DNA of 34,113 bases from Candidatus Zixiibacteriota bacterium. GTDB lineage: Bacteria; Zixibacteria; MSB-5A5; WJJR01. Made by a program: the position numbers and the translations under genes. Positions 3,393-34,113 of the stretch are shown here, piece after piece; positions within the stretch are counted from its first letter, which is position 1; every line of letters starts with the position of its first letter. The stretch spans positions 1 to 34,113 of the forward strand of contig JAGVEK010000484.1 of the NCBI GenBank assembly GCA_020058315.1, in the 5' to 3' direction. Under the pieces are notes generated by a model. That model ran no database searches and had not been told where the DNA came from. It was given only the letters and a program-made list of their open reading frames with translations.

Positions 3393-3509
3393 ATGACGCA
3401 ACAAGAGATTGAGGAATTAGCGAGGACCGTCGCGAAGCTGATCCGCAACAGCGCCGAGGTGCGGCAGACAATCTGAGGCTGCGCGTGCCAGTGCCCAAAT
3501 CTAACCTGA
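3393..3509 (+). pseudogene. Truncated copy of the 41-aa 'MTQQE' small-protein family (in-frame TGA at 3474)
   Basis: MTQQEIEELARTVAKLIRNSAEVRQTI*GCACQCPNLT* versus MTQQESEEFAKLITKLIRNSAEVRQAIWDCACQCPNLTVEY at 6308; TGG->TGA at the conserved W. GGAGG-type RBS upstream. Confidence 0.7.
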
Positions 3510-3553
3510 GGAGGAATCAATCCACGAGGGAGTAAAGCTCGTGGTCGCCTTTC

Positions 3554-4087
3554 TCAAGCGAAGCGATCGATTGCGAAGATCTCGGATCCTGTTTTCCGCT
3601 GGGAATCGGCCACAGGCGAGATCAACTCGCCCGCAGCGGGGTATCCAACCGGCATGAGAGCGACCACCTTTGCCTGCCGTGGAACGCAGAGCAGTTTCTT
3701 GATTTCCAGCTCGTCGAACGCGCCGATCCAACACATCCCTAGGCCCTCAGCCACGGCCGCCAAGGCGAGATGATCGAGCGCGATGGTCACGTCGATGTCC
3801 ACGCTGTTTCCGGAGCCGCCCATGGTCTGGTATGCCTGGTGCGGCAGCCCACACCCCACCACGATCAGCGGCGCGTCGGCGATGAAAAGCTGCTCCTGCG
3901 CCGCCTGAGCAAGCCTCTGTCGAATCTGCGGATCGAAGACGAAGATGAACCGCCAAGGCTGAAGGTTGCAGGCCGACGGAGCAAACCGCAACGCTTGGCG
4001 CAAACGATCCAGGATCTCCGGCGGGATCGCCTTGGACGCATACGCTCGGACGCTTCGCCGCATGCGAATCGCTTCGAGTACGTTCAT
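3554..4087 (-). CDS. Nitroreductase family protein
   Basis: MNVLEAIRMRRSVRAYASKAIPPEILDRLRQALRFAPSACNLQPWRFIFV... with RRSVRxY and PSACNLQPW typical of nitroreductases. Confidence 0.88.
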   Translation of the reverse strand: MNVLEAIRMRRSVRAYASKAIPPEILDRLRQALRFAPSACNLQPWRFIFVFDPQIRQRLAQAAQEQLFIADAPLIVVGCGLPHQAYQTMGGSGNSVDIDVTIALDHLALAAVAEGLGMCWIGAFDELEIKKLLCVPRQAKVVALMPVGYPAAGELISPVADSQRKTGSEIFAIDRFA

Positions 4088-5287: not shown

Positions 5288-6178
5288 TCAGTTTGGTGTC
5301 AGGGCGAACGCCCAAGCGACCGCAAGAATCGTCAAAGCGGCGCCTCCGAATATGAGCTGTGCTCGCAGTTGAGACCATGCGCGGTCGGCTCTTTCGCCGA
5401 GAGCGCCAACTAGAGCGCCACACAGGAAGCCAAACACGTGGGCGCCGACATCGGTGCGCCCGCCGCCAGTACCTAGGAGGCTGAGCAGGAGGGCGCCCCC
5501 GACGATCGGCGCCCATTTTTCCATTCGTGAGGTGCGCAGCCATCTGTTTTGTCGCCAAGCATGCCCCGCAAGCAACCCCAAGGCAGCGAAGACGGCAGTC
5601 GAAGCGCCGATAGAAGCGTGGCCGGCGGGGTGCAGCCAAGCATTGAGAAGATTGCCCAAGGCGCCTCCGATGAGGATGCCAAACCAGGCGCGGCCCGAAC
5701 CAAACGAACGGCCAGCGAACAGCCCGACGAGACCGCCGATGATGACGTTCCCAATCAAGTGCACAAGGTCGGCGTGCAAGGTCAGAGCGGTTACCGTCAG
5801 CCACCACTGTCCCTGTCGGATGAGGCCTGCCTGTGCCGTGCCTGCTTCAAGCCAATCCACACCAAATGAATGCTGCTGCTGCCACACGGCTACGATCGAT
5901 AGCACCGTGGCATAGCACAACACGCCGGCCCACCCGTTGGCCGGCCTTGGAACCGTAAAACGAGCCGTCGGCCAATCACGATTCTCTGATGCGTAGGCAT
6001 CGAGTTCCGCGCGGCTCCGATCCGCATCCGAAGCAGCAACCAAGATGATGAGCTCACCTGCTTCTGGACGAACCTCGTGCGCGATCCCAGCCGCCCCAAG
6101 CACAAGGGCATGCTCGCGGCAATCCGTTTGATTCGGCGAACGGTAGACGATTCCCCACTCAAAACGCGAGTCGGCCAT
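5288..6178 (-). CDS. Rhomboid family intramembrane serine protease
   Basis: HADLVHLIGNVIIGG, HPAGHASIGASTAVFAALG (GASTA catalytic Ser), TDVGAHVFGFLCGALVG (catalytic His), multiple TM helices. Confidence 0.88.
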   Translation of the reverse strand: MADSRFEWGIVYRSPNQTDCREHALVLGAAGIAHEVRPEAGELIILVAASDADRSRAELDAYASENRDWPTARFTVPRPANGWAGVLCYATVLSIVAVWQQQHSFGVDWLEAGTAQAGLIRQGQWWLTVTALTLHADLVHLIGNVIIGGLVGLFAGRSFGSGRAWFGILIGGALGNLLNAWLHPAGHASIGASTAVFAALGLLAGHAWRQNRWLRTSRMEKWAPIVGGALLLSLLGTGGGRTDVGAHVFGFLCGALVGALGERADRAWSQLRAQLIFGGAALTILAVAWAFALTPN

Positions 6179-6250
6179 ACCCAGCGATTCTATCGACCAT
6201 GCGGAAGGCTACGTAGGGGCTGCGTGGAATCGCGCAGGGTTAGGTACATT

Positions 6251-6281
6251 GGCGGTTCGCCTTGTTTTTGAGCGAACCGCC
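6251..6281 (+). repeat. Hairpin copy 2: GGCGGTTCGC-CTTGTTTTTGA-GCGAACCGCC
   Basis: Perfect 10-bp stem with T-rich loop, 26 nt upstream of the 6308 ATG. Confidence 0.9.
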
Positions 6282-6307
6282 ACAAGTGGTCGCTGGAGGA
6301 ACTGAAT

Positions 6308-6433
6308 ATGACGCAACAAGAAAGCGAAGAGTTCGCAAAGCTCATCACGAAGCTGATCCGCAACAGCGCCGAGGTGCGGCAGGCGATCTGGGACTGCGCG
6401 TGCCAATGCCCGAACCTAACCGTGGAGTACTGA
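6308..6433 (+). CDS. 41-aa Cys-containing small protein (MTQQESEEFAKLITKLIRNSAEVRQAIWDCACQCPNLTVEY)
   Basis: Paralogue of the 3393 copy; substitutions between the copies include several synonymous third-position changes in this frame (AAC/AAT, CAA/CAG, CCG/CCA). RBS CTGGAGGAACTGAAT upstream. Not in the supplied ORF track. Confidence 0.7.
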   Translation: MTQQESEEFAKLITKLIRNSAEVRQAIWDCACQCPNLTVEY

Positions 6434-6442
6434 GGTGGGAGC

Positions 6443-6682
6443 ATGGATCGAAACGAGGCGGAGCAGCTCGCCTGGAAGATTCTTGGCGAGGTCGAAGAAA
6501 CGATGAGTGGGGATGGCGTTGCCGTTTTTTCAGGCGAAGGCCATCACGGCATCAAGGTGAGGGCCTTCTTCGAGGACCGGGAGTATAGCGCCTTGGAGAA
6601 CACGATTGTCAGGATTCTGCTGGAGGCAATGAAGGTTCAAGCGGTCCTGCAGGCCCAGTCGTTGGACGGGCACGACTTGTAG
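6443..6682 (+). CDS. Small acidic protein carrying one copy of a recurring ~50-aa domain
   Basis: ILGEVEETMSGDGVAVFSGEGHHGIKVRAFFEDREYSALENTIVRILLEAM aligns by eye with both halves of the protein at 7135. Confidence 0.7.
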   Translation: MDRNEAEQLAWKILGEVEETMSGDGVAVFSGEGHHGIKVRAFFEDREYSALENTIVRILLEAMKVQAVLQAQSLDGHDL

Positions 6683-9954: not shown

Positions 9955-11055
9955 TCACGCGCGTTCGAGGCAGCACTTCTTGTATTTCCGGCCGCTGCCG
10001 CACGGGCACGGGTCGTTGCGGCCGACCTTCTGCGCCAGTGGGAAGAACTCGGGTCGGTCAGTAATTACCTTCGTCGGCGGGGGCAACGCATGCCGGAACG
10101 GCACGTCGACATGCCTACCGCTCCGCGGGTGTTTTCGCTCGAGTTCCCTCCAGTCATCGGACCGTCCCATCTTCTCGAGAAGGTCGATGATACGCTCCGA
10201 GGCGCCGTCCCAGTCGTACGACTCGGCCGCCATGCCCATCGCGTGTATGTAAAAGGCCAAGGCGGCTTCGTTGTCACCAAGCTCGGCATACACATCACCG
10301 GCCTTGATTCGGATCCAGAAGTCCTCCGGGAACCGTTTGAGATTGGCTCGAACCCGATCCAGGGCCTGCTCGCGCCGGCCAGCCATCGCCAAGGCAAATG
10401 CGAGGTCGCCCTGGTAGTTGGCGGCATCGTCGAAGCTGGACATCACATCGGCGACCCGCGTCACTTCGTCCGGGTAGCGCTTACCGTGGTTCAGGACGAA
10501 ACAGAGCAGCCATGAGCTATGATCGTATACGCCGCACTCGTCGACTTCTTGCAACCGCGCCGCCCGCTCCTTGGGCGGGACGCGTTCAAGATAGTCCATG
10601 AGCAATAGGGCCGTCTCGACGTCGCGCTGGCCGTCCTCTGGTGAACGGCTGGGGCGCTCGCTCGAAGCGCGAACGGCCTCTTCAAGGCGATCAGCAATCA
10701 GCTCCGGACACAGAAGATCGGGCATTAAGCGGCGCCACAGCTCCTCCACAGCCAGGAACGGAAAATCGTCCCAGAATGTGCCGGTGTCGGGCGCACCTTC
10801 GCAGCACGTCCTCTGCAGGACCGTCGGGCGCTTCGCCGCCTGCGCCTGCTCGCGGAATCGCTGCTCGTCGGTGTCGACGCCGAGTGCCTGGAGCTTCGCG
10901 AAGATGGCATCCGTGGACCAATCCGAGAGCCCGTCGTACCGCCAGCCGAAACCCTCTTTCCGGTGCCGTTCGACATCCTTCGTTATCGTCTCGTCGTCGC
11001 CTTTCCGCAGCGCCTGCTTGACCATGAGATAAACCTGCCGGTGGTTGATGTTCAT
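9955..11055 (-). CDS. TPR-like protein with C-terminal SEC-C metal-binding motif
   Basis: C-terminal [19 protein letters not shown], the SEC-C signature; preceding helical repeats. Confidence 0.85.
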
Positions 11056-11260
11056 GATGAAAGCGCTCTGAACAGCGGGCGGCCCGCCGAAGCCGAGCTA
11101 TCGTACCGCGCCGGCAAGGGGTGTGCAGTTTGCCAGCTTCGATGGTGACGGCGTACTTGGACGCAGCAGCAAACAAGCCCATCAATCGCCAACTTGCGGT
11201 CCGGTCGTCGCATCAGCCATGCTGAACCAGCGATGGGGGCTCGCCGTGTATAATCCCCTC

Positions 11261-11491
11261 ATGTCCTCGACGGAGACCACCGCCGAAGCCCTGACCGGCA
11301 GCATCGAACGGGTGACTTTTCACAACCCCGACAACGGCTTTGCCGTTCTGCGCCTCAAGGTCAAGGGACGCACCGAACTCGTCAGCGTCGTCGGCTATCT
11401 TGTCTCCACCGCCGAAGGGGAAAACGTTGAAGCGGGCGGACGCCCGGAAGAGGCACTCCGCTTTGAAGGAGCGGCTTCAGAGGCGCGTTGA
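11261..11491 (+). pseudogene. N-terminal remnant of RecD2-like helicase
   Basis: LTGSIERVTFHNPDNGFAVLRLKVKGRTELVSVVGYLVSTAEGENVEAGG resembles the RecD2 N-terminus, then diverges and terminates; no helicase motifs follow. TATAAT at 11249 just upstream. Confidence 0.7.
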
Positions 11492-17249: not shown

Positions 17250-17858
17250 ATGTACCCAATCCAATCGTCCAACGGCCCTATCTCCACGGGCAGCTATGTC
17301 CCGTACTTCTATCAGGGCGGCGTCTTCGAGCGCTACGGGCTGCCTGCCGTGCTTCCCGGCCGCACCGGGACGCAAGAAAAAGCGATCCCGTACCGATTCT
17401 CGTCTGATCTCTCGTTAGTAAGAACGCTGGACCACGACCAAACCGTCGAGCAGATCATCGCTCACGGTTACTTCGCGCCGCCACCGGGCGATCCGATCAC
17501 GGCCATCCTATCCGACAAGAAAACCACCTCCTGGCTCGGCCTCGACGACATCATCTCGCAGGTCCGACACCGCTACGAGGTGCACCGCCAGAACATGTAC
17601 GAACTGGAACTGGCCAAATCGGCCGCGACCAACTCGCTCTACGCCCACTGGGCCTACCACGGTCTGCCCGACGCGAAACAATTCTACTCCCGCCACAAGC
17701 GTATCCAGGAGCTCTACCAGGAGCAGCGAGATGAACGGGTGAACCTCTGGCGCGATGTATCCCGACTGCGATTGGCTCTCCCCGAGACGGCCCAGGCATA
17801 CCTCTCTTCGCACCGCAAACTCACCGCCCTCGAAGGCGAACCGGGTGATGCTCCATGA
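17250..17858 (+). CDS. Hypothetical protein, first gene of HerA-like operon
   Basis: 202-aa ORF, RBS GAGGTGG; stop overlaps next ATG (ATGA at 17855). Confidence 0.75.
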   Translation: MYPIQSSNGPISTGSYVPYFYQGGVFERYGLPAVLPGRTGTQEKAIPYRFSSDLSLVRTLDHDQTVEQIIAHGYFAPPPGDPITAILSDKKTTSWLGLDDIISQVRHRYEVHRQNMYELELAKSAATNSLYAHWAYHGLPDAKQFYSRHKRIQELYQEQRDERVNLWRDVSRLRLALPETAQAYLSSHRKLTALEGEPGDAP

Positions 17859-19969
17859 TGACCCGCATGCAGGAACTGTGTCGAAAGCTCAAGCCGGTTC
17901 TCGGTTCAAAAGTGGACGGATTGTGGCGGGCGTACGTCGCCGATTCCGACGCCGACGGCAAAGCGGACATCGAACAAACATTGGAACTTCTGGCCGCCAA
18001 GCACCTCGGAATCGACTATCAGCCGGATCGCTCGCCATTCCCGCCGCCGGCCAGGACGTTCGCGGCCTTGGGCGACATTACAACCGGCATGGTCTCGTAC
18101 GGGACTCGCGAGTTGTATCCCTTCGCCCTTCAAAGTGGGCGTCTCAAGGAACACGTCCTGATCGCCGGAAGGAGCGGCTCTGGAAAGACCAATCTCTCCT
18201 TTGTTCTCATGCAAGGCATCATGAACCGTGGCGTCAAGATTCTGGCTTTGGACTGGAAGCGCGCCTACCGGGACCTGCTTTCGCTGCGATCGGACTTGCG
18301 TGTCTACACCATCGGGCGGGAAGTGGCGCCATTCAGATTCAACCCCTTCATTCCTCCGCCCGGCTGCGAAGTCCAAGTTTGGACCAAGCTCATCGTGGAT
18401 GTGATTGCGTCCGCGTACCTCGGCGGCGAGGGAGTCATCAGCCTGCTCATCGCGGGACTCGATCGGCTCTATCCGGAAGCCCGCGACAAGAGACGCTGGC
18501 CGACGGTCATCGATCTTCTGACCTGGCTGCGGACCGTCAAACTCCGAGGCCGTGCGGCGATGTGGCAAGCGTCGGCCGAGAGAATTCTTCTCGCCATGAC
18601 CTACGGCGAGTTCGGTGCCGTCCTCAACACCCAGGACAACAGCCATCTGCAACACCTTCTCGATCACAATGTCATCCTGGAGATGGATGGTCTGTCGAGT
18701 TCCTCCGATCGGGTGATGTTCTCGGAGGCCATCACGCTCTACCTCTATCGCTACCGGCTGTCCCTTGGGCCGCGAGAACAGCTGACCAACGTCATTGTCC
18801 TCGAGGAAGCCCACAACCTACTCCTCGCTAAGCAGACGGGGACGAAGGAATCTGGCCTTGAGACCTCCATTCGAATGATCCGTCAGTACGGGCTCGGCTA
18901 CGTCTTCGTCGATCAATCGGCGTCCCTGTTGAGCCGGGTGGCTTTCGCCAACTCCTACGTGACCTTCGCGCTCAGTCAGAAACTCCGTGCGGACATCAAG
19001 ACCATGTCCGGGGCGATGAATTTGTCCGAAGAACAGGAGGAGGCGTTGAGCACTCTCCCGATAGGATCGGCAGTCGTGCGCCTGGCCGACGAGCATCCTG
19101 AACCATTCCTGATCCGGATCCCGCGCTGCTCGATCCGGGAAGGAAGCGTCTCCGATTCTGCGATTCGAAGTCACATGGCGGCTTATTCCGCTGAGTCCGC
19201 GGTGAATAGTCCGCCGCGCTTTGAACTACCGGCGGTTCCACCGGTTCCGGCCCCAGATAAAAACAACATTGAAATCAACCTAACGACAATTATTCCCCAC
19301 CCACCATCCCCCGAAAGATCACCCGAATGCTCGGATTCATCCGACTCGACCATCCGCGATACGATTCCCGATCCACCCCATTCTAAACTCTCTCGAGAGA
19401 CAATTCGCTTCCTTACTGATATAGCCGCCCGGCCGCTATCGACTACTGTCTCTCGTTATCAACGATTGCATCTGTCCCGTCGAAAAGGTAACGCCATCCG
19501 TCATGATCTACTCGCCGCCGGCATCATCGAAGCCGTCCCCCTCGCCACCCGCACCGGGCAGGTCATGCTCTTTCAGTTGACCGACTTCGGTCGTCAGATC
19601 TGTAACGACATCGGTGTGGATCCCGGTCCTCCGCCCCGCGCCAGCCTCGAACATCAATACTGGGCCCATCGCGTGGCCGAGATGTACGAGAAGCAGGGTT
19701 ATGAAGTCGCGCTTGAGCATGCCGTGGCCGGCAACGGAATCGTCGACGTCGTCGCCGAGCGCGCTAGTGAGCGCCTGGCCATTGAGATCGAGACAGGCAA
19801 GTCAGACATCCAAGCGAACATCGAGAAGCTGCGAGGCATGGGTTTCGATCGAGTCCTCCTCGTGGCCACCTCGCCATCCGCGATTAGCGCCTGCCAGCGG
19901 GCGCTGGATTCCGTCCCGCGGGAAGCCCGGCAGGCAGTTGAACTCTTGACATGGCTGGATGTGCCATAG
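17855..19969 (+). CDS. HerA/VirB4-like (DUF87-type) ATPase fused to winged-helix and PD-(D/E)XK-like C-terminal regions
   Basis: Walker A LIAGRSGSGKTNLS, VKILALDWKRAY, Walker B NVIVLEEAHNLLL, RQYGLGYVFVDQSASLLS; C-terminal GIVDVVAERASERLAIEIETGKSDIQANIEKL. Confidence 0.85.
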   Translation: MMTRMQELCRKLKPVLGSKVDGLWRAYVADSDADGKADIEQTLELLAAKHLGIDYQPDRSPFPPPARTFAALGDITTGMVSYGTRELYPFALQSGRLKEHVLIAGRSGSGKTNLSFVLMQGIMNRGVKILALDWKRAYRDLLSLRSDLRVYTIGREVAPFRFNPFIPPPGCEVQVWTKLIVDVIASAYLGGEGVISLLIAGLDRLYPEARDKRRWPTVIDLLTWLRTVKLRGRAAMWQASAERILLAMTYGEFGAVLNTQDNSHLQHLLDHNVILEMDGLSSSSDRVMFSEAITLYLYRYRLSLGPREQLTNVIVLEEAHNLLLAKQTGTKESGLETSIRMIRQYGLGYVFVDQSASLLSRVAFANSYVTFALSQKLRADIKTMSGAMNLSEEQEEALSTLPIGSAVVRLADEHPEPFLIRIPRCSIREGSVSDSAIRSHMAAYSAESAVNSPPRFELPAVPPVPAPDKNNIEINLTTIIPHPPSPERSPECSDSSDSTIRDTIPDPPHSKLSRETIRFLTDIAARPLSTTVSRYQRLHLSRRKGNAIRHDLLAAGIIEAVPLATRTGQVMLFQLTDFGRQICNDIGVDPGPPPRASLEHQYWAHRVAEMYEKQGYEVALEHAVAGNGIVDVVAERASERLAIEIETGKSDIQANIEKLRGMGFDRVLLVATSPSAISACQRALDSVPREARQAVELLTWLDVP

Positions 19970-22311: not shown

Positions 22312-22739
22312 GGGTGTTCGAGGTCTGGCCGGCGGTAGCCGTGAATCTGCTGGTGCCGATATTCGGCCTGGGCGCGCTGATACTCGGCATGAACGCGCCG
22401 CATCAGGGTTTCGTCCCAGCGGGTGGTACTCAAGTCCTGGTCGCGGGCTACAAGGGCCGCGATTCCGTTGAAACGATAGACGCGCTGACGCTCGGCGTAG
22501 TCGACGCCGCTGTTCGGGTCAGCGTATTCGACCACGAGGCTGTCGTAGGTCGGCAGCGTGAAGGTTGGATGCCAGATGTCATGGTAGCCCTGGTCATAGA
22601 TCAAACGCGGCTGGCGGTAGAAGAACGGAGTGTCGTATCGGTCCATCATCCGGCCAATGCGGGCCTCGACATCGGTCTGATACGGCGGTTCCAGTTTGCC
22701 AAGTTTGGGGTCCGGCGGTTCGTAGGTCTTGGAATTCAT
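22308..22739 (-). CDS. Putative PD-(D/E)XK-like nuclease fold protein
   Basis: HPTFTLPTYDSLVVEYADPNSGVDYAERQRVYRFNGIAALVARDQDL resembles the 'F.LP.Y.L.vEY.g...Y..R...Y..ngi..l' core of restriction-like endonucleases. Eye-level similarity only. Confidence 0.55.
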   Translation of the reverse strand: MNSKTYEPPDPKLGKLEPPYQTDVEARIGRMMDRYDTPFFYRQPRLIYDQGYHDIWHPTFTLPTYDSLVVEYADPNSGVDYAERQRVYRFNGIAALVARDQDLSTTRWDETLMRRVHAEYQRAQAEYRHQQIHGYRRPDLEHP

Positions 22740-23809
22740 GGTTGGTTCACCTCGGGTGTTTGTTGGGTAACGTGTTGAGCGACGGCGAGGAGTTTTTTCT
22801 CGGTGCGATCGATGAGCTTGAAAAGGCGCGTGTTGTGAGCTTGGAGTTTCTCGGCGCCCTTGAGCAGGTCGGGCACTCTCCGGTACTCATGTCGCTTGAG
22901 GGCCTCCGCGGCCTCCGCGGTCACATGGTGGATGCGGCGCTCGGCCTCGGCGCAGGCGCGGTCTAGACGTTCGAGGCGTAGATCCAGCTTGAGCTCCTTG
23001 AATCGGGTACTGAGTTCTTCGCCGAGTTTCCGCTTCCCTTCCGCAGGCAGCTTCGAGAGGACGTCGCGGATCTCCTCGATCCGGGCCACCTGTCCCTCGC
23101 GCATGTGGTAGGCCCTCTCGCGAAGGGCCGCGAGGCGCTCGGTCAGATAGCCCTCCGCGGGAAGAATGCGCCGGAGCTGGAGCATGAGGTCGTTTTCCAG
23201 CTCCGGGCGGTCATCAAGGAGATCTGCCTCCCGCCGCGCCCGGCGCAACTGGTTGACGAGCGCACCGGCCAGGTGGCGGTCACGGTAGAGTCGAACGGGG
23301 TCGTTTCGCACGGACGGAACCGCGGCTGGGGTTTGTGGGCGCCAGCGGCGGTTATCTTGGCGGTGGTTGCCCAGGGCGAGAAGTCCTACCAATAGTGCGA
23401 CCGTTGTGATCGTTTGGAGCACCTGCTCGTTGATTGGCCATGGGATGCCGAGGATCCAGCCTATCAGGATGCTCACGCCGAAGGTGAACGACAGACCCGC
23501 AATGGTCCCGCCGATGGCGCGGATCGCCCGGTACATGACGGCGGCAAGAAGTAGAAGGGCGAAGGCCACGGCGATGGGACCGAGGCTTCTGATGGAATAG
23601 CCGTTCTCTGCCTCCCACCACACGAGGCCTGTTGAAAGCGCCACGCCGATCGCCAGAGAGGCTACGGCGGCGGAGCGCTTGTTGAACTTGTCGCTCAACG
23701 CAGCGAAACAGAGGGCGGTGAAGAAGGCCACGGCCAGTACGAAGTCAGGGAAGAATTCATGAAGAAGCGTCCCTCTCGCCAACTCTGCCGCCTCGTCCGC
23801 GCGCGCCAT
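22736..23809 (-). CDS. Multi-pass membrane protein with long C-terminal coiled coil
   Basis: Several TM segments in the first ~160 aa, then RARREADLLDDRPELENDLMLQLRRILPAEGYLTERLAALRERAYHMREGQ...; first gene of an ATGA-overlapped operon. Confidence 0.75.
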   Translation of the reverse strand: MARADEAAELARGTLLHEFFPDFVLAVAFFTALCFAALSDKFNKRSAAVASLAIGVALSTGLVWWEAENGYSIRSLGPIAVAFALLLLAAVMYRAIRAIGGTIAGLSFTFGVSILIGWILGIPWPINEQVLQTITTVALLVGLLALGNHRQDNRRWRPQTPAAVPSVRNDPVRLYRDRHLAGALVNQLRRARREADLLDDRPELENDLMLQLRRILPAEGYLTERLAALRERAYHMREGQVARIEEIRDVLSKLPAEGKRKLGEELSTRFKELKLDLRLERLDRACAEAERRIHHVTAEAAEALKRHEYRRVPDLLKGAEKLQAHNTRLFKLIDRTEKKLLAVAQHVTQQTPEVNQP

Positions 23810-23830
23810 GAAGGGAAGTGGGGCTTGGTT

Positions 23831-23840
23831 GTATTTATAT
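23831..23840 (-). promoter_or_regulatory. TATA-like element ATATAAATAC (minus strand)
   Basis: 22-31 nt upstream of ATG at 23809 (minus), consistent with archaeal TATA and near-leaderless transcription. Confidence 0.55.
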
Positions 23841-23934
23841 CTTACTGTTCTTTGGATCTCGCAGCAGAGCGCGACCGCCATTCCCAGGACTGGACCATCT
23901 TCTCGTTCGTGGTGTCACCCCTCCCAAGGGGTGC

Positions 23935-23977: not shown

Positions 23978-25078
23978 ATGAGCACCGTGGATTTCGAATC
24001 CTATTTCAAACACCAGCGCGAACGGATCGAGGAAGAGGCCAAACTAATCAAGGACTTCTCGGTCTTCAGCTTCCACTACGTTCCTGATGAACCGGTGCTT
24101 CGGCCCGAGGCCACCCTGCTGATCGATGAGCTCGCCAACTTCAACCTGTCCGGCATACCCACGCACCTGGCAATCGTTGGTAGCCGAGGCTCGGGTAAGA
24201 CCCTCACGGTCAAGTACCTGGAGCGCGTCGTGCAGCGGGAGTCGGACCTGGAGATCCTCTACGCCAACTGCCGCCATCACGACACGAGCTTCAAGATCTT
24301 CGCCCATCTTCTGGGCATCCACGCCCGTGGGGCTAGTATGAGCGAGGTGTTCGAGCGCTTTTGCGCCCGTTGCCGCAGAAAGACGGTGGTGGTCCTGGAC
24401 GAAGTCGACCTCATGAGTCCCAAGGACCGACGCCGTGAGATTCTGTACCTTCTCAGCCGGGCAGCACAGCCCTTCATGGTCATGATGCTCTCCAACAGCC
24501 CGCAGGTGCTCAAGGAGCTGGATGCCGCCACGCGGAGCAGCCTCCAGCCCGTTCCGGTCCACTTCAAGAACTACAATGCGGATCAGATCCGCGACATTCT
24601 CCGCGACCGCGCGCAGCGCGGGCTGCATCGTTGGGAAGAAGCCGACCTCTCGGAGATTGCCGCCTTGACTACGAAGTTCAGCAATGCCGACGCCCGCTTG
24701 GCGATCAAGACCCTGCAGTACCATGTGACCGGCCGGGCCAAGGACCTTCGCGCCTGCTTCGAACGCGCGCGGCGGGACCTCGTCGTGGACCTGGTCTGCG
24801 ACCTCTCGGACAGCACCCTGGCCATCCTCTGGGCTGCCGCCACCAACGACTCGGACTTTGCCCGAAGCATCTACGAGCGGTATTGTGCCCACTGCCGGCA
24901 GCGCCATGAAAAGCCGTTCAGCTACGTCCACTTTCATTCGAACCTGAGCTACCTGCAGAGCGCCGGCCTAGTTGCGTTGGTCTCGACCAAGCAAGGACGC
25001 ACCTACGCCAACCGGGTACTGTTGACCTTCGACCGGAACATGGCCCGTGAAATCGCCGGGCTGCGCTTCGAAGCCTGA
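23978..25078 (+). CDS. Orc1/Cdc6-like AAA+ replication initiator with C-terminal winged helix
   Basis: Walker A AIVGSRGSGKTLTVKYL, ILYANCRHHDTSFKIFAHLLG, Walker B KTVVVLDEVDLM, sensor-1 VMMLSNSP, YNADQIRDILRDRAQRGL, sensor-2-like NADARLAIKTL, wHTH PFSYVHFHSNLSYLQSAGLVALV. Confidence 0.85.
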   Translation: MSTVDFESYFKHQRERIEEEAKLIKDFSVFSFHYVPDEPVLRPEATLLIDELANFNLSGIPTHLAIVGSRGSGKTLTVKYLERVVQRESDLEILYANCRHHDTSFKIFAHLLGIHARGASMSEVFERFCARCRRKTVVVLDEVDLMSPKDRRREILYLLSRAAQPFMVMMLSNSPQVLKELDAATRSSLQPVPVHFKNYNADQIRDILRDRAQRGLHRWEEADLSEIAALTTKFSNADARLAIKTLQYHVTGRAKDLRACFERARRDLVVDLVCDLSDSTLAILWAAATNDSDFARSIYERYCAHCRQRHEKPFSYVHFHSNLSYLQSAGLVALVSTKQGRTYANRVLLTFDRNMAREIAGLRFEA

Positions 25079-25160: not shown

Positions 25161-25182
25161 ACTGTGCGGAGTGAATACGCGG
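25161..25182 (+). repeat. Origin-like repeat R1 ACTGTGCGGAGTGAATACGCGG
   Basis: 18/22 match to R4. Confidence 0.8.
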
Positions 25183-25248
25183 CCGTCTCCCGATGTGGTG
25201 GCATGCTCGTTCTTCCAATCGCGGATTGGGTGATCTTCCCGCATCATC

Positions 25249-25270
25249 ACCGCGCGCAGTTAACACGTGG
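25249..25270 (+). repeat. Origin-like repeat R2 ACCGCGCGCAGTTAACACGTGG
   Basis: 20/22 match to R4. Confidence 0.9.
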
Positions 25271-25339
25271 CAGCCATTTGTTCTTGGCGGGTGTCCATCA
25301 CTCCGGTGCCCGCCTGCTCCCATCCTGATTCTCGAACAC

Positions 25340-25360
25340 GCTGTGCGTGTTAATGCGTGG
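25340..25360 (+). repeat. Origin-like repeat R3 GCTGTGCGTGTTAATGCGTGG
   Basis: Matches R4 with a 1-nt gap and 4 mismatches. Confidence 0.75.
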
Positions 25361-25428
25361 CCGCATCCCAGGGCCGTGGTACATTCCTTCCTCAGATCCC
25401 TGGCTTCGCCATCAACCCGGCCTGTCAC

Positions 25429-25450
25429 ACTGTGCGCAGTTAACACGTGG
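25429..25450 (+). repeat. Origin-like repeat R4 ACTGTGCGCAGTTAACACGTGG
   Basis: Reference copy of the repeat set. Confidence 0.9.
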
Positions 25451-25530
25451 GCACCTACCCATGTGTGTGGTGTCCTGCGTCCTTCCCGTCTTTTCTTCCT
25501 GATTCTTCACTCCGTCCGAAGACTGCTTCC

Positions 25531-25575
25531 GACATACCTATATATGACATACCTATATATATTGCTACAATATGG
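25531..25575 (+). other. AT-rich putative unwinding element with tandem 15-mer GACATACCTATATAT x2
   Basis: GACATACCTATATAT|GACATACCTATATAT|ATTGCTACAATATGG in a GC-rich context, between R4 and inverted R5. Confidence 0.8.
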
Positions 25576-25613
25576 AAAGGAATAGGAAGGAAGGACCCCG
25601 CGGCCGGGGGCGT

Positions 25614-25635
25614 TGGCGTGTTAACTCCGCACAGT
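25614..25635 (-). repeat. Origin-like repeat R5 (inverted) ACTGTGCGGAGTTAACACGCCA
   Basis: Reverse complement matches R4 18/22; opposite orientation on the other side of the AT-rich element. Confidence 0.88.
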
Positions 25636-26265
25636 TTGCTTTGACCTTCCAAGCCCAACTGGTCGCCGTTTGCCAGGCGCAGGGCGCCTTCGGAGTGCGA
25701 ATCTGCCGCGCACGCGGGAACGCCAGAATGCCGTAATCTCATCTACAGCCAGGGCTGATGCAGGGATCAGCCCTGTTCCGTATCGAGGGTCGTAGCGCTC
25801 GGCGTACAGGGCAGCGAGGCGATACCCGGTGCGAACCGACTCCCAGGGTCGCAGCACGCACTCCATCGCGTACTCCGCCAGCAGACCTTCCTTATAGTGG
25901 ATGATGCGGACATCGGCCCAGCGATGATGCTCAACCTCGCTTTGTGAATCCCGGAGGTCTTCGTACGCGGCCCGCAACGCCTCGCGACATACCGACCCCG
26001 GCCTGCGAAGATGCGATCGGATGACCCTCACCGCGCGATCGATCAGCGGGCGAAACTTCTTCTTGGCCTTGGGTCGGGCCAATTGGGTCAAGTGCAGCCC
26101 GAATGCAACCGTATCCGCCGGATCCGAGCAAAACTCCTTGAGCAGAGTGAGCCGCGTGATCTGGAAATGCTGGCCGTTTCGCAGCTGGGCGGCGATTTCG
26201 ACCAAGCGATTGATCTTCACCGCCGCTTTGTCTGGATCAATCACGTTCAATGGTGCTCCCATCAT
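25621..26265 (-). CDS. Hypothetical protein; stop codon lies within repeat R5
   Basis: 214-aa ORF with good composition; TAA stop (25621-25623, minus) is part of the GTTAAC core of R5. Confidence 0.7.
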   Translation of the reverse strand: MMGAPLNVIDPDKAAVKINRLVEIAAQLRNGQHFQITRLTLLKEFCSDPADTVAFGLHLTQLARPKAKKKFRPLIDRAVRVIRSHLRRPGSVCREALRAAYEDLRDSQSEVEHHRWADVRIIHYKEGLLAEYAMECVLRPWESVRTGYRLAALYAERYDPRYGTGLIPASALAVDEITAFWRSRVRGRFALRRRPAPGKRRPVGLGRSKQTVRS

Positions 26266-26383: not shown

Positions 26384-26710
26384 ATGGGAAGGCGATACAA
26401 GTGCGTTTGGTGCAGTTCCGGCGAGACGACCGGCAAAGGGGTTCGGCGCACAAAGACGATGGGGAATCGGCGAATTTGCCGCTGTAAGGCCTGCGGCCGA
26501 AAGTTCACGCCGAAATACCAGCCTGAAGTCTCGGTGACTTCGGGCCCTGATCAAACACGATCGTCGGCCATCGATCCGCAGAAGCTTGCGAAGCCTGCGC
26601 AACTCTGCAACTCAGCCCCAAAACAAGATCAGGCCAGCACTCCCATCGGCTATAAACCCGAGCAAGGAGACGCCGAACACGGCCTTTCGGAGAATGGCCC
26701 CAGCGCTTGA
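26384..26710 (+). CDS. Small zinc-ribbon protein
   Basis: MGRRYKCVWCSSGETTGKGVRRTKTMGNRRICRCKACGRKFTPKYQ; CxxC...CxxC, strong RBS. Confidence 0.7.
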   Translation: MGRRYKCVWCSSGETTGKGVRRTKTMGNRRICRCKACGRKFTPKYQPEVSVTSGPDQTRSSAIDPQKLAKPAQLCNSAPKQDQASTPIGYKPEQGDAEHGLSENGPSA

Positions 26711-27500
26711 CCGCTCCGGGCTCCTCACCCGCACCTTCCAGATGAGCGAGGCGGTCGAGCGGTTTGTCGGCGCCGCACGGGCGTTCTTCTACGAGGTCGC
26801 GCTGTCGGGTCGGCAATGTCCCGTCTGCGGTGGTCGCCTAGCGATGAGCGGTGAAAGTCGCTGTCGTTGCGAGACCTGCGGGCAGGAGTCGGACCCGACA
26901 TGTGCGTTCCAGCGGTGCCCGGCGTGCGGAGGCAGCCCACGGCTCCGCGTCCGGCGATATGAGTGCGAAATCTGCGGCATGGACATGCCGTCGCGTTTCG
27001 TCTTCGACGGATTGGTGTTCGATGTCGAGTACTTTCGGCAGAAGATGGAGGAGCATCGCCAGAGGACCGCGGGGCGTATGGAGCGTGTCCGTGAGATGCT
27101 TGCGGCGAGCCGATCGCCGGCAATCGCGGCAGGCCCGTTGGACCTGGCCAATCATCCCGGCTTGCTTGATGCACTGGACGCACTGGTAGACGGCTCTCCC
27201 GTCGCCCTCCAAATCGAGCCGCGCTCGAGATTCGATCTCAAGGCCTACCAGGCGCATGTACAGGCTAATCTTGGGACACTCGGGCGCGACTTCGATGAGA
27301 TCCCCGCCCTGCGATCTGATGACCGGTTTGACCGCGTGTGGCGGTTTATCGCGGTCATATTCCTCGCCCACGAGGGTCGCGTGAGGGTCGTTCAGGATGG
27401 CGAGGAGATCATGGTGATGCAACGTGAAACTGACCGAGAAGGACAAGACATTTCTGGAGAACTTGAAGAGGCTGATGGAGTCGAAGGACTTGTGGGTTGA
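26694..27500 (+). CDS. Multi-zinc-ribbon protein with uncharacterised C-terminal domain
   Basis: CPVCGGRLAMSGESRCRCETCGQESDPTCAFQRCPACGGSPRLRVRRYECEICG: four CxxC pairs; overlaps upstream and downstream ORFs. Confidence 0.7.
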   Translation: MAPALDRSGLLTRTFQMSEAVERFVGAARAFFYEVALSGRQCPVCGGRLAMSGESRCRCETCGQESDPTCAFQRCPACGGSPRLRVRRYECEICGMDMPSRFVFDGLVFDVEYFRQKMEEHRQRTAGRMERVREMLAASRSPAIAAGPLDLANHPGLLDALDALVDGSPVALQIEPRSRFDLKAYQAHVQANLGTLGRDFDEIPALRSDDRFDRVWRFIAVIFLAHEGRVRVVQDGEEIMVMQRETDREGQDISGELEEADGVEGLVG

Positions 27501-27903
27501 ACTCAAGCCCGGCCAACCCAGCCACATGGTCCTTCGCGGTACCTACGGAGAGAAAGTTTATCGGGCCTTTCGCATGACTCGGCAGGGCGTGCGCTGGCGC
27601 TTCTGGCGTATCTATAATGATATCTACATTTCTGCGTTCGAGGCCATTCTCTTCGTGGAAACCACATTCGGCACTCAGCTCCGCGAACATGCGATCCGAA
27701 TCAGCAAGGAGCGGTATGCGCTGCGGCAGGAGGCGTTGGGAAGCGAGTTTGAAAGCGCGAGCGTGGTGCGGGATGGAAGTGACGATTCTCCGAAGGCCCC
27801 AGTCTCGGAGAGTGATCATACCAAGCACCCGGATCACGAACCGCATGACTCCAACGCGGCCGAAGGTGCTCAGCCTCAGGAGCCGCGAGGTGACGGCCGA
27901 TGA
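27424..27903 (+). CDS. Hypothetical protein
   Basis: MKLTEKDKTFLENLKRLMESKDLWVELKPGQPSHMVLRGTYGEKVYRAFRMTRQGVRWRFWRIYNDIYISAFEAILF...; ATGA overlap with next gene. Confidence 0.65.
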   Translation: MKLTEKDKTFLENLKRLMESKDLWVELKPGQPSHMVLRGTYGEKVYRAFRMTRQGVRWRFWRIYNDIYISAFEAILFVETTFGTQLREHAIRISKERYALRQEALGSEFESASVVRDGSDDSPKAPVSESDHTKHPDHEPHDSNAAEGAQPQEPRGDGR

Positions 27904-28319
27904 GCGAACCGAGCAAGATCGATTTCCGGCATCGGCGCATTCGGGAGATCGAAGATATCACGGACATCGTGGCGATGATCTTCCCAGGCAACACGAATCA
28001 GCAAAACGCGGCGGCACGGATACTTCTCACATTAAAGGCCGCCGCGGAAACGGTCCCATCGTTGCGAGTTCTTGAGGAACAACATGGCATCTCGCGCCGA
28101 ACGCTCGAACGCACGCGGGCCAAGCTGGCTCATGTTGGCCTGATCGAAAACATCGGGCCGCTGAGCAAGCGGGCAAATGGTCACCCAGGCTGGCGGCTCT
28201 CGGGGCGGATGAGCGGCGCGATGCGCCTCCTTGCCGAGAAGATTGATACATGGAAAACCGACACGAGGCCGGAGCGCCAAGAGAAGGATGAGAGGCTGGT
28301 AGGGATGCAGTTATCGTGA
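27900..28319 (+). CDS. Winged-helix/HTH DNA-binding protein
   Basis: QQNAAARILLTLKAAAETVPSLRVLEEQHGISRRTLERTRAKLAHVGLIENIGPLSKRANGHPGWRLS. Confidence 0.7.
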   Translation: MSEPSKIDFRHRRIREIEDITDIVAMIFPGNTNQQNAAARILLTLKAAAETVPSLRVLEEQHGISRRTLERTRAKLAHVGLIENIGPLSKRANGHPGWRLSGRMSGAMRLLAEKIDTWKTDTRPERQEKDERLVGMQLS

Positions 28320-33100: not shown

Positions 33101-34113
33101 TGTCGGGTGTCCACGGGATGTTGTCCTGATACCACGGAACGATAATGCCCGGGACAGGAGAAACGTGTACGCCTGTTTTGAAAAACGTTCTCCGGCCTTC
33201 ACCGTTGACGACCTCCACCATGATCTCACTGCAAGTGTCGACTGCGCTTGGTGCAGAGATGTCCAACGTGGCACGCGCCAGGCCTCCACCGAGGTTTGTG
33301 ATAACGGCTTGGTGCTGTGTCCCGGCAACCGTGCACTGCACCGACCCTGGGGAGCCATTCCAAGCAACGGTGGTTTCAAACGCCAGATTTCCTGGCATTC
33401 CTTCGATCAGGTGATGACCATTCGGTGAGTCGAAATCCAGCGTCGCCGGTGATCCCAGACCGGAGTTTGCTTGCAACTGGAAGGTCTCGTACTTCGCCTC
33501 GCCGGCGGCAATGGTGATTGTTCGTGTTGCAGAGTAGTAGCCCGTCTTGCTGATCGTCACAGTACCGGAGTTTGGTGGGAGACCGGTGAACTCAAACTCT
33601 CCTTGCTGATTGGTCGTGGTCGCAATGCCGGCAAACGACACAGACGCTCCGGCAAGCGGGCCCAGAACTTGGCCAAGAGAATCCGCTTCAACTGCGAGCC
33701 CACGCAAGCTCGCTCGGTCCGCAGCAATAACACAGCCAGTCGAGGGCGGCGAAGAAAGAAAGGGTGTGTATTCAACGAGTGGAAGATTATGGTTGTCGTT
33801 CCAGTCTTGAATCTTGGTGTTAATTGTCGCTGTGCTCGTCGTTCCCCACCAATTGTACTCCATGTGTATGACTGATCCGCTGGTTCCGACGGCAGAAACG
33901 GACGCAGAAGAAAGGTCGTTGTTGTAGAACTCCACGTCGGCATTGCTATGAATCGTGATGTTATGTAGATGAGAACAGCCCACCGACCCTGCGCTGCCGG
34001 TGTTGAAGGTCACCCGCCCCTCCAGCCGGGTGTTGGCGAAGCTCGCCTGCCCGCCGCTGTTGACGATGAGGTTCGTGCTCCCACCCGTGAACGACGCCCC
34101 GTCCGCAACCAAC
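30144..34113 (-). CDS. Very large secreted protein (beta-helix-like and carboxypeptidase-regulatory-like regions, CARDB-like domains, dockerin-like C-terminus); 5' end outside window
   Basis: SFAGIATTTNQQGEFEFTGLPPNSGTVTISKTGY; PGSPATIKATIENRGDLPVVGALVELYDGDPNNGG; GDLDRDRDIDAQDHAVG...SDLESDGDVDLKDFAVFQRVFTGVLP. Confidence 0.85.
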   Translation of the reverse strand, partial: LVADGASFTGGSTNLIVNSGGQASFANTRLEGRVTFNTGSAGSVGCSHLHNITIHSNADVEFYNNDLSSASVSAVGTSGSVIHMEYNWWGTTSTATINTKIQDWNDNHNLPLVEYTPFLSSPPSTGCVIAADRASLRGLAVEADSLGQVLGPLAGASVSFAGIATTTNQQGEFEFTGLPPNSGTVTISKTGYYSATRTITIAAGEAKYETFQLQANSGLGSPATLDFDSPNGHHLIEGMPGNLAFETTVAWNGSPGSVQCTVAGTQHQAVITNLGGGLARATLDISAPSAVDTCSEIMVEVVNGEGRRTFFKTGVHVSPVPGIIVPWYQDNIPWTPDSLKLDFSLEKSHDWKLPLGSNDLKLEASLGYNAGLSYDLLGATFGGSLGGFGGLDIEWNLPGTPVEILGEAQLGLAGELDIALAGCDAPELTPSWEASFSGKAGVGAKAVAVVGVLFPPAAPAVNFLLTIPVVKEVVGALKVRVYLIGGATVSGEYELGTWNDACFLGADTINVSGTMGIEAQALLKLDEDVKVGIYAGGTGTPEFEVCPEWVFRSLTLAAYVGVFAHAWLFQFTEEVGTEICFGDCTEERALGSVALGDPMLNGKWRPLGFELVRWGEANQTGRDQILLWRGTNQAEGLGPALEEILVTNVSPLASPSLISDSTQTHVAYALHDPSKPWYQATDIASVRSVGGAAWTMERVADDAMADFGPVLAATSVDKDIAVWEQIDGDVSGAQSPSDVAPYLEIATSFFDRATGEWTTPILVANNDVVDRAPCPVVYNGTTGVIWIQNEADASPGNSSSGDRLMFAHWNGTNWSSPEIVWSGQKGVLGLAFVEDSGGAGYVVFTVDEDGNLDTRDDRELYALETAGGIWQATRRLTNDTVEDALPVLVAPNGEVICVWASDGTVMYSPLGTWNARPIYAEDTLANQAPSLDGVTMPGGAAVAYGVQGPEGVDIVAAFYDVEVDQWSLPRQLTQDEHSETALSLAYNGSQLLIAYLKTQTERNDMDIEISGQLHHLTNVPQPGRTDLCLLRHVLGNDLAVVERSLVVEPPNPVPGSPATIKATIENRGDLPVVGALVELYDGDPNNGGASIAKVSVSPSPLMAGRTEQLLFPWNVPSLQVPHRLFVVVDPDLNVDDRDRSNNTVSAWIVLPNIEMASGPITRVSETAVAVTTRLMNSGSVPTGPFGVSWRLNAADGAEIGVGTTDPVPSGGSYDATFVWDTRDLRPGDFVQVFALANFDHSVNEADETDNVHVQVVHVPLILGDLDRDRDIDAQDHAVGSACLTGPGVTMPESCRESDLESDGDVDLKDFAVFQRVFTGVLP

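Follow-up and report, generated by a model that had tools for sequence, protein, structure and literature searches.

Replicons governed by initiators of the Orc1/Cdc6 family are a hallmark of the archaea and, in the form of the origin recognition complex (ORC), of the eukaryotes. The archaeal initiators load the MCM helicase, and bacteria normally initiate replication with another protein. In archaeal origins built on origin recognition boxes (ORBs), the initiator gene is accompanied by repeats that carry a private motif and stand in both orientations around an AT-rich element; the same anatomy is found in the DNA stretch described here (the window, 34,113 nucleotides), a contig of a Candidatus Zixiibacteriota genome in which five copies of a short repeat adjoin an orc1/cdc6-like gene. 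ORB sequences and initiators are known to be diverse and specifically paired (for a review, PMC4010727). Among described systems, the one with the nearest initiator is the plasmid pPO1 of the archaeon Picrophilus oshimae, whose Cdc6 protein has been proposed as the initiator and the adjoining AT-rich repeat region as the origin (PMC3177234).

From its sequence features the zixibacterial locus is a good candidate origin, and it is quite probable that it represents the replicator-initiator module of an archaeal-type (i.e. Orc1/Cdc6-based) mobile or extrachromosomal element in a bacterium. An Orc1/Cdc6-associated origin had been proposed in an initial annotation of the window; the proposal is well supported by the anatomy of the locus, by control archaeal plasmids and by an element of another genome of the phylum (G110), and partly supported overall. 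It is the host, more than the new motif, that makes the locus important and that is its main surprise, missed in the initial annotation: a bacterial element appears to carry a replicator-initiator pair of archaeal type. If this assignment is true, complete initiator and origin modules exist in bacterial elements and Orc1 initiation crosses the border between domains. It would also open a direct route to asking whether an Orc1-family initiator works with a bacterial helicase, and would supply studies of site choice with initiator/site pairs of two kinds, with canonical ORBs and with a new motif.

Anatomy of the candidate origin

The array consists of the direct copies R1 (25161-25182, 22 bp), R2 (25249-25270, 22 bp), R3 (25340-25360) and R4 (25429-25450, the consensus copy), all on the forward strand, and of the inverted copy R5 (25614-25635, reverse strand). 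All five are present where they had been annotated, R3 being weaker, with 1-2 nt deleted and a score of 14 bits in the ungapped register versus 29-32 bits for R1, R2, R4 and R5. The spacings of R1-R4 (88, 91 and 89 bp) are correct and even, as had been noted, but they are half-integral in helical turns and, therefore, any two adjacent sites would be presented on opposite faces of the helix. The suggestion that the repeats belong to divergent units of about 90 bp finds weak support (p ~0.013).

The score of the array as an ungapped 18-mer family is 12, against a maximum of 3 in 60 + 40 dinucleotide-preserving shuffles. The same score is reached by five of 406 segments (562 bp each) from other contigs of the genome, at two loci; these (L080, ~6183-6464, and L081, ~844-2530) contain strong repeat families and possibly encode repeat proteins. 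The sole other comparable array of the window lies at 1.9-2.4 kb inside a tandem-repeat protein gene, so that R1-R5 form the only non-coding array of their kind in it. The motif is not scattered through the genome, where it does not recur elsewhere, and a search of the phylum's 133 other genomes with up to two mismatches met it at one isolated, chance-level site (in a coding region of G038); the pattern of the R sites was not found in viral contigs.

The AT-rich tandem element that had been annotated next to R4 is confirmed, with GACATACCTATATAT found twice at 25531-25560, and it is part of a candidate unwinding element at 25531-25593. In the stability computation the 60-mer at 25534 is the most AT-rich and the least stable of the 34-kb window (-66.3 kcal/mol versus a window mean of -90.2, with a standard deviation of 4.6, i.e. 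about five standard deviations), and this minimum is enclosed by R1-R4 on one side and by the inverted R5 on the other. The array is found 3' of orc1, in non-coding DNA facing a convergent open reading frame (25621-26265, reverse strand), which has coding-like codon usage only at 25738-26265; from two codon-usage scores, its last 39 codons appear to be non-coding. Thus, as the array lies between convergent gene 3' ends, it is no obvious candidate for a promoter operator. The AT-rich element contains one sigma-70-like match, where 0.4 would be expected by chance, and the window contains no DnaA box (TTWTNCACA; chance expectation 0.9). Searches for Rfam families and tRNA genes gave no match.

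The working of such an origin can be sketched by analogy with archaeal ones. The Orc1 protein encoded at 23978-25078 would occupy R1-R4 and, across the AT-rich tandem element, the inverted R5; it would then assemble over the whole segment and melt that element (25531-25593), after which a replicative helicase, either the host DnaB or another, would be loaded.

The initiator and its archaeal and bacterial relatives

The orc1 gene (23978-25078, forward strand) is intact, shows coding-like codon usage and encodes 366 amino acids. The protein is a full-length Orc1/Cdc6 homologue, in agreement with the initial annotation: its match to TIGR02928 (E = 3.1e-37) extends over residues 24-341 and covers the AAA+ and C-terminal regions, archaeal Orc1/Cdc6 structures are matched (PDB 2v1u, 2qby and 1fnn), and the alignment with Sulfolobus Cdc6-1 spans residues 33-355. 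A profile built on six relatives, two of which are archaeal or archaeal-looking, retrieves 2qby_A (Cell division control protein 6 homolog 1) at 6.7e-88. The Walker A (GSRGSGKT) and Walker B (VVVLDEVD) motifs are present and invariant positions are shared with the relatives, while the C-terminal winged-helix domain (PF09079) gives a weak match (18.5 bits versus a cut-off of 25.1). A single-sequence structure prediction (confidence score, pLDDT, of 43) was too poor and was not used.

The closest named relative is Cdc6 of pPO1 (tblastn, 2e-36), with which the window Orc1 forms one clade in the tree (support 100/99). No closer relatives were found in the genome contigs or viral contigs searched, and none in phages; pPO1 Cdc6, too, has no relatives in the viral contigs searched. 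The plasmid resembles the window also in having an AT-rich repeat region (IG1) with an inverted pair beside the initiator gene and a separate FtsK/HerA-related gene, but it differs in its archaeal host, in the position of the repeats 5' of the gene, and in being small (7.6 kb) and AT-rich. The repeat sequences of the two are not provably related: a 14/19 likeness found by eye is only a hint, and a profile comparison gives p ~0.04 in a different register. On pPO1 itself (L014), a second inverted pair precedes the HerA-type gene (3786-3978; 19 nt, 95% complementary, with 155 nt between the arms) and may be an alternative control region.

The control consisted of the orc1 flanks of eleven archaeal plasmids (pPO1 excluded), with repeat families tested against shuffles. 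Significant repeats with copies in both orientations are found in seven of them (pRMAS01, pCaT2 and the Halorussus, Haloarcula, Halalkalicoccus, Haloplanus and Halocatena plasmids) and, in five of these seven, the opposed copies enclose the AT-richest stretch. The Methanosarcina and Halobacterium plasmids have chiefly direct repeats, and no repeats were found in the orc1 flanks of the Salinigranum and Halococcus plasmids. The Halalkalicoccus plasmid is very similar to the window, its two direct copies lying 90 bp apart and being accompanied by an AT-rich stretch and a single inverted copy. In each plasmid the motif is a private one. Of the new initiator-site specificity that had been put forward for the window, the novelty of the site sequence stands, but a private repeat for each archaeal initiator was already known (PMC4010727).

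Differences from the archaeal ORB origins are the bacterial host without a detected MCM, the 3' position of the array and the lack of a canonical core: in neither flank of the window orc1 is there a site with up to two mismatches to TTCCANNGGAAAC, which we take to be the ORB core of Sulfolobus and Pyrococcus origins, as the initial annotation had anticipated in calling the motif non-canonical. With bacterial origins based on iterons or DnaA boxes the locus shares a repeat array and an AT-rich unwinding element, but its initiator is Orc1/Cdc6-like and no plasmid Rep family stood out among the window proteins scanned. No report of a bacterial Orc1/Cdc6 was found in searches of open-licence literature, and there may be an earlier description elsewhere.

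Within the phylum, the most informative comparison is with G110, in which a three-gene cassette found in the window at 26586-28319 follows orc1 in the same order and orientation. Upstream of that orc1, at 10613-10760 of a contig of host-like composition (C68, L055), the AT-rich, least stable stretch of the contig has an exact match to the canonical ORB core, TTCCATCGGAAAC, on one side and, on the other, a second copy that is inverted and less perfect. Both elements therefore have an AT-rich stretch at orc1, but in G110 the ORB pair is canonical and 5' of the gene, and the Orc1 protein belongs to another lineage. The first refuting condition of the initial annotation, homologous loci without repeats beside the gene, thus has a mixed outcome, with this textbook pair on one side and, on the other, no array near the distant orc1 genes of G031, G127, G012 and G038.

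The bacterial Orc1 sequences form at least two, and probably three, lineages, namely the window type, the G012/G038 type, which G110 joins at moderate support, and the G031/G127 type, which extends to bins of Phycisphaerae and Aenigmatarchaeota. The existence of several lineages suggests that Orc1 replicons have been captured repeatedly in Zixiibacteriota. The loci L060 and L061 belong to a bacterial (Phycisphaerae) and an archaeal (Aenigmatarchaeota) bin and encode closely related Orc1 proteins, which reflects either an element that crosses domains or a binning error. Another orc1 contig, G128:C120 (L020), has 33% GC, several ORB-like sites and a repeat array with ~38-bp spacing (3469-4000), and is probably archaeal DNA that was binned with a bacterium in error. 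In G012:C235 (L021), an archaeo-eukaryotic-type primase (AEP-TOTE) is encoded at 5787-6401 near a bacterial orc1.

Host, helicase and competing explanations

The host, of Candidatus Zixiibacteriota, is a bacterium. The window is contig C143 of a genome bin (59% complete, 571 contigs) in which a bacterial DnaA is encoded. In GC content and tetranucleotide usage the window equals the other contigs of the genome and the genus, its last 38 bp (34076-34113) overlap exactly with contig C545 (L065) of the same genome and, by inspection, it encodes proteins of bacterial type (dockerin-like and IPTL-CTERM-like). If C143 and C545 adjoin, the length of the segment is at least 44.8 kb. Since BLAST finds only ~57 bp shared between the window and the other genomes of the family, the window probably represents accessory DNA. 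We further infer an extrachromosomal state, not an integrated one, for the element.

Several observations weigh against an origin of this kind. The array includes a degraded copy, R3, and lies 3' rather than 5' of orc1, an arrangement that is rarer though known, as some archaeal origins have been found downstream of the initiator gene in a survey (PMC3528665). The canonical ORB core is missing, and the motif has no demonstrable kinship with the pPO1 repeats, the best core match in a blind scan having been equalled in 69 of 500 shuffles. The GC skew, which had been proposed as a check, shows no clear switch across the window, and the contig has no end overlap that would indicate circularity. 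The TIGR02928 score of the window Orc1 (128.3 bits) is below the curated cut-off of 181.3, which the Orc1 proteins of G110, G012, G031 and G127 exceed; no array was seen in the examined orc1 flanks of G031, G127, G012 and G038, which carry more distant orc1 genes, and no closely related element was found on which site conservation could be judged. Finally, searches for MCM (PF00493) gave only weak matches (E about 1e-6) in those bacterial genomes that carry orc1, some of which are nearly complete. The search is noisy, with matches in all 14 controls (e.g. Escherichia coli, which has no MCM), so that only the absence of strong matches is used, and the incompleteness of the genome of the window limits this negative result. 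A stronger MCM-like match was seen in G037, in which no orc1 was detected.

As no MCM was detected, Orc1 would need DnaB or another helicase. There is about an even chance that Orc1 fires its own origin in an MCM-less bacterium and passes the opened DNA to DnaB or to an element-encoded helicase, a hybrid pathway, and that such replicons were captured more than once in Zixiibacteriota, with canonical and with private sites.

Of the other explanations, a decayed or dormant origin in a chromosomally integrated, host-replicated element, either a relic or one that fires on excision only, is unlikely. It would account for the degraded R3 and for a contig that is not circular, and it is in keeping with the orc1 of G031, which lies on a 114-kb contig beside ordinary chromosomal-looking genes and an integrase, but four of the five sites and the AT-rich element are well preserved and the gene has remained intact and coding-like. 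Direct repeats beside an ATPase gene occur in partition systems too and, with a sigma-70-like match in the AT-rich element, the array could be imagined as a partition (centromere-like), recombination or transcription-control site instead of an origin; this seems improbable given that the neighbouring gene is of the Orc1 type, that no ParA or ParB stood out among the proteins scanned, that the inverted copy and the extreme stability minimum fit an origin, and that the array is placed at gene 3' ends.

HerA-type and Orc1-like ATPases also co-occur in defence systems, a further point to be set beside those against an origin, and the HerA-like protein of the window (17855-19969, forward strand) has a weak C-terminal match to Mrr-like nucleases (PF04471). 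It is, nevertheless, very improbable that the two ATPases form an anti-invader system with the repeats as a regulatory or loading site: orc1 has no convincing PADLOC match, it is separated from the HerA-like gene by 4 kb that contain other genes, its nearest relative is a plasmid initiator, and the array sits between convergent 3' ends. The ordinary origin of an archaeal plasmid, on a contig misbinned into a bacterial genome, is an equally remote prospect. The bin is fragmented and incomplete, the G128 contig looks archaeal and a near relative of the G031-type Orc1 is found in an Aenigmatarchaeota bin, but the host-like composition, the bacterial proteins, the exact overlap with another contig of the bin and the presence of the cassette in several zixibacterial bins all argue for a bacterial element.

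Neighbouring genes

Divergent from orc1 is a gene for a probable membrane protein (22736-23881, reverse strand), a relative of which adjoins HerA in G045. Upstream of the HerA-like gene, which is common to other zixibacterial elements, a probable coiled-coil partner is encoded (17250-17858, forward strand), also present in G012 and G038; the coiled-coil/HerA pair around orc1 recurs in other Zixiibacteriota. Of 134 genomes of the phylum, 17 have a member of the HerA family, which was also noted at G000:C524; the HerA-like protein of the window has no relatives in the viral contigs searched. The cassette comprises genes for a zinc-ribbon protein (26586-27500), a second protein (27424-27903) and a helix-turn-helix-like protein (27900-28319), all on the forward strand, and is found in G012 and G110, the first two genes also in G038. 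Contig C545 encodes a TROVE/Ro60-like protein, a MoxR-like ATPase and a diverged second ADP-ribosylglycohydrolase. At 11123-11491 of the window, a fragment of a YrrC/RecD2-type helicase comprising the OB domain only is probably a remnant gene.
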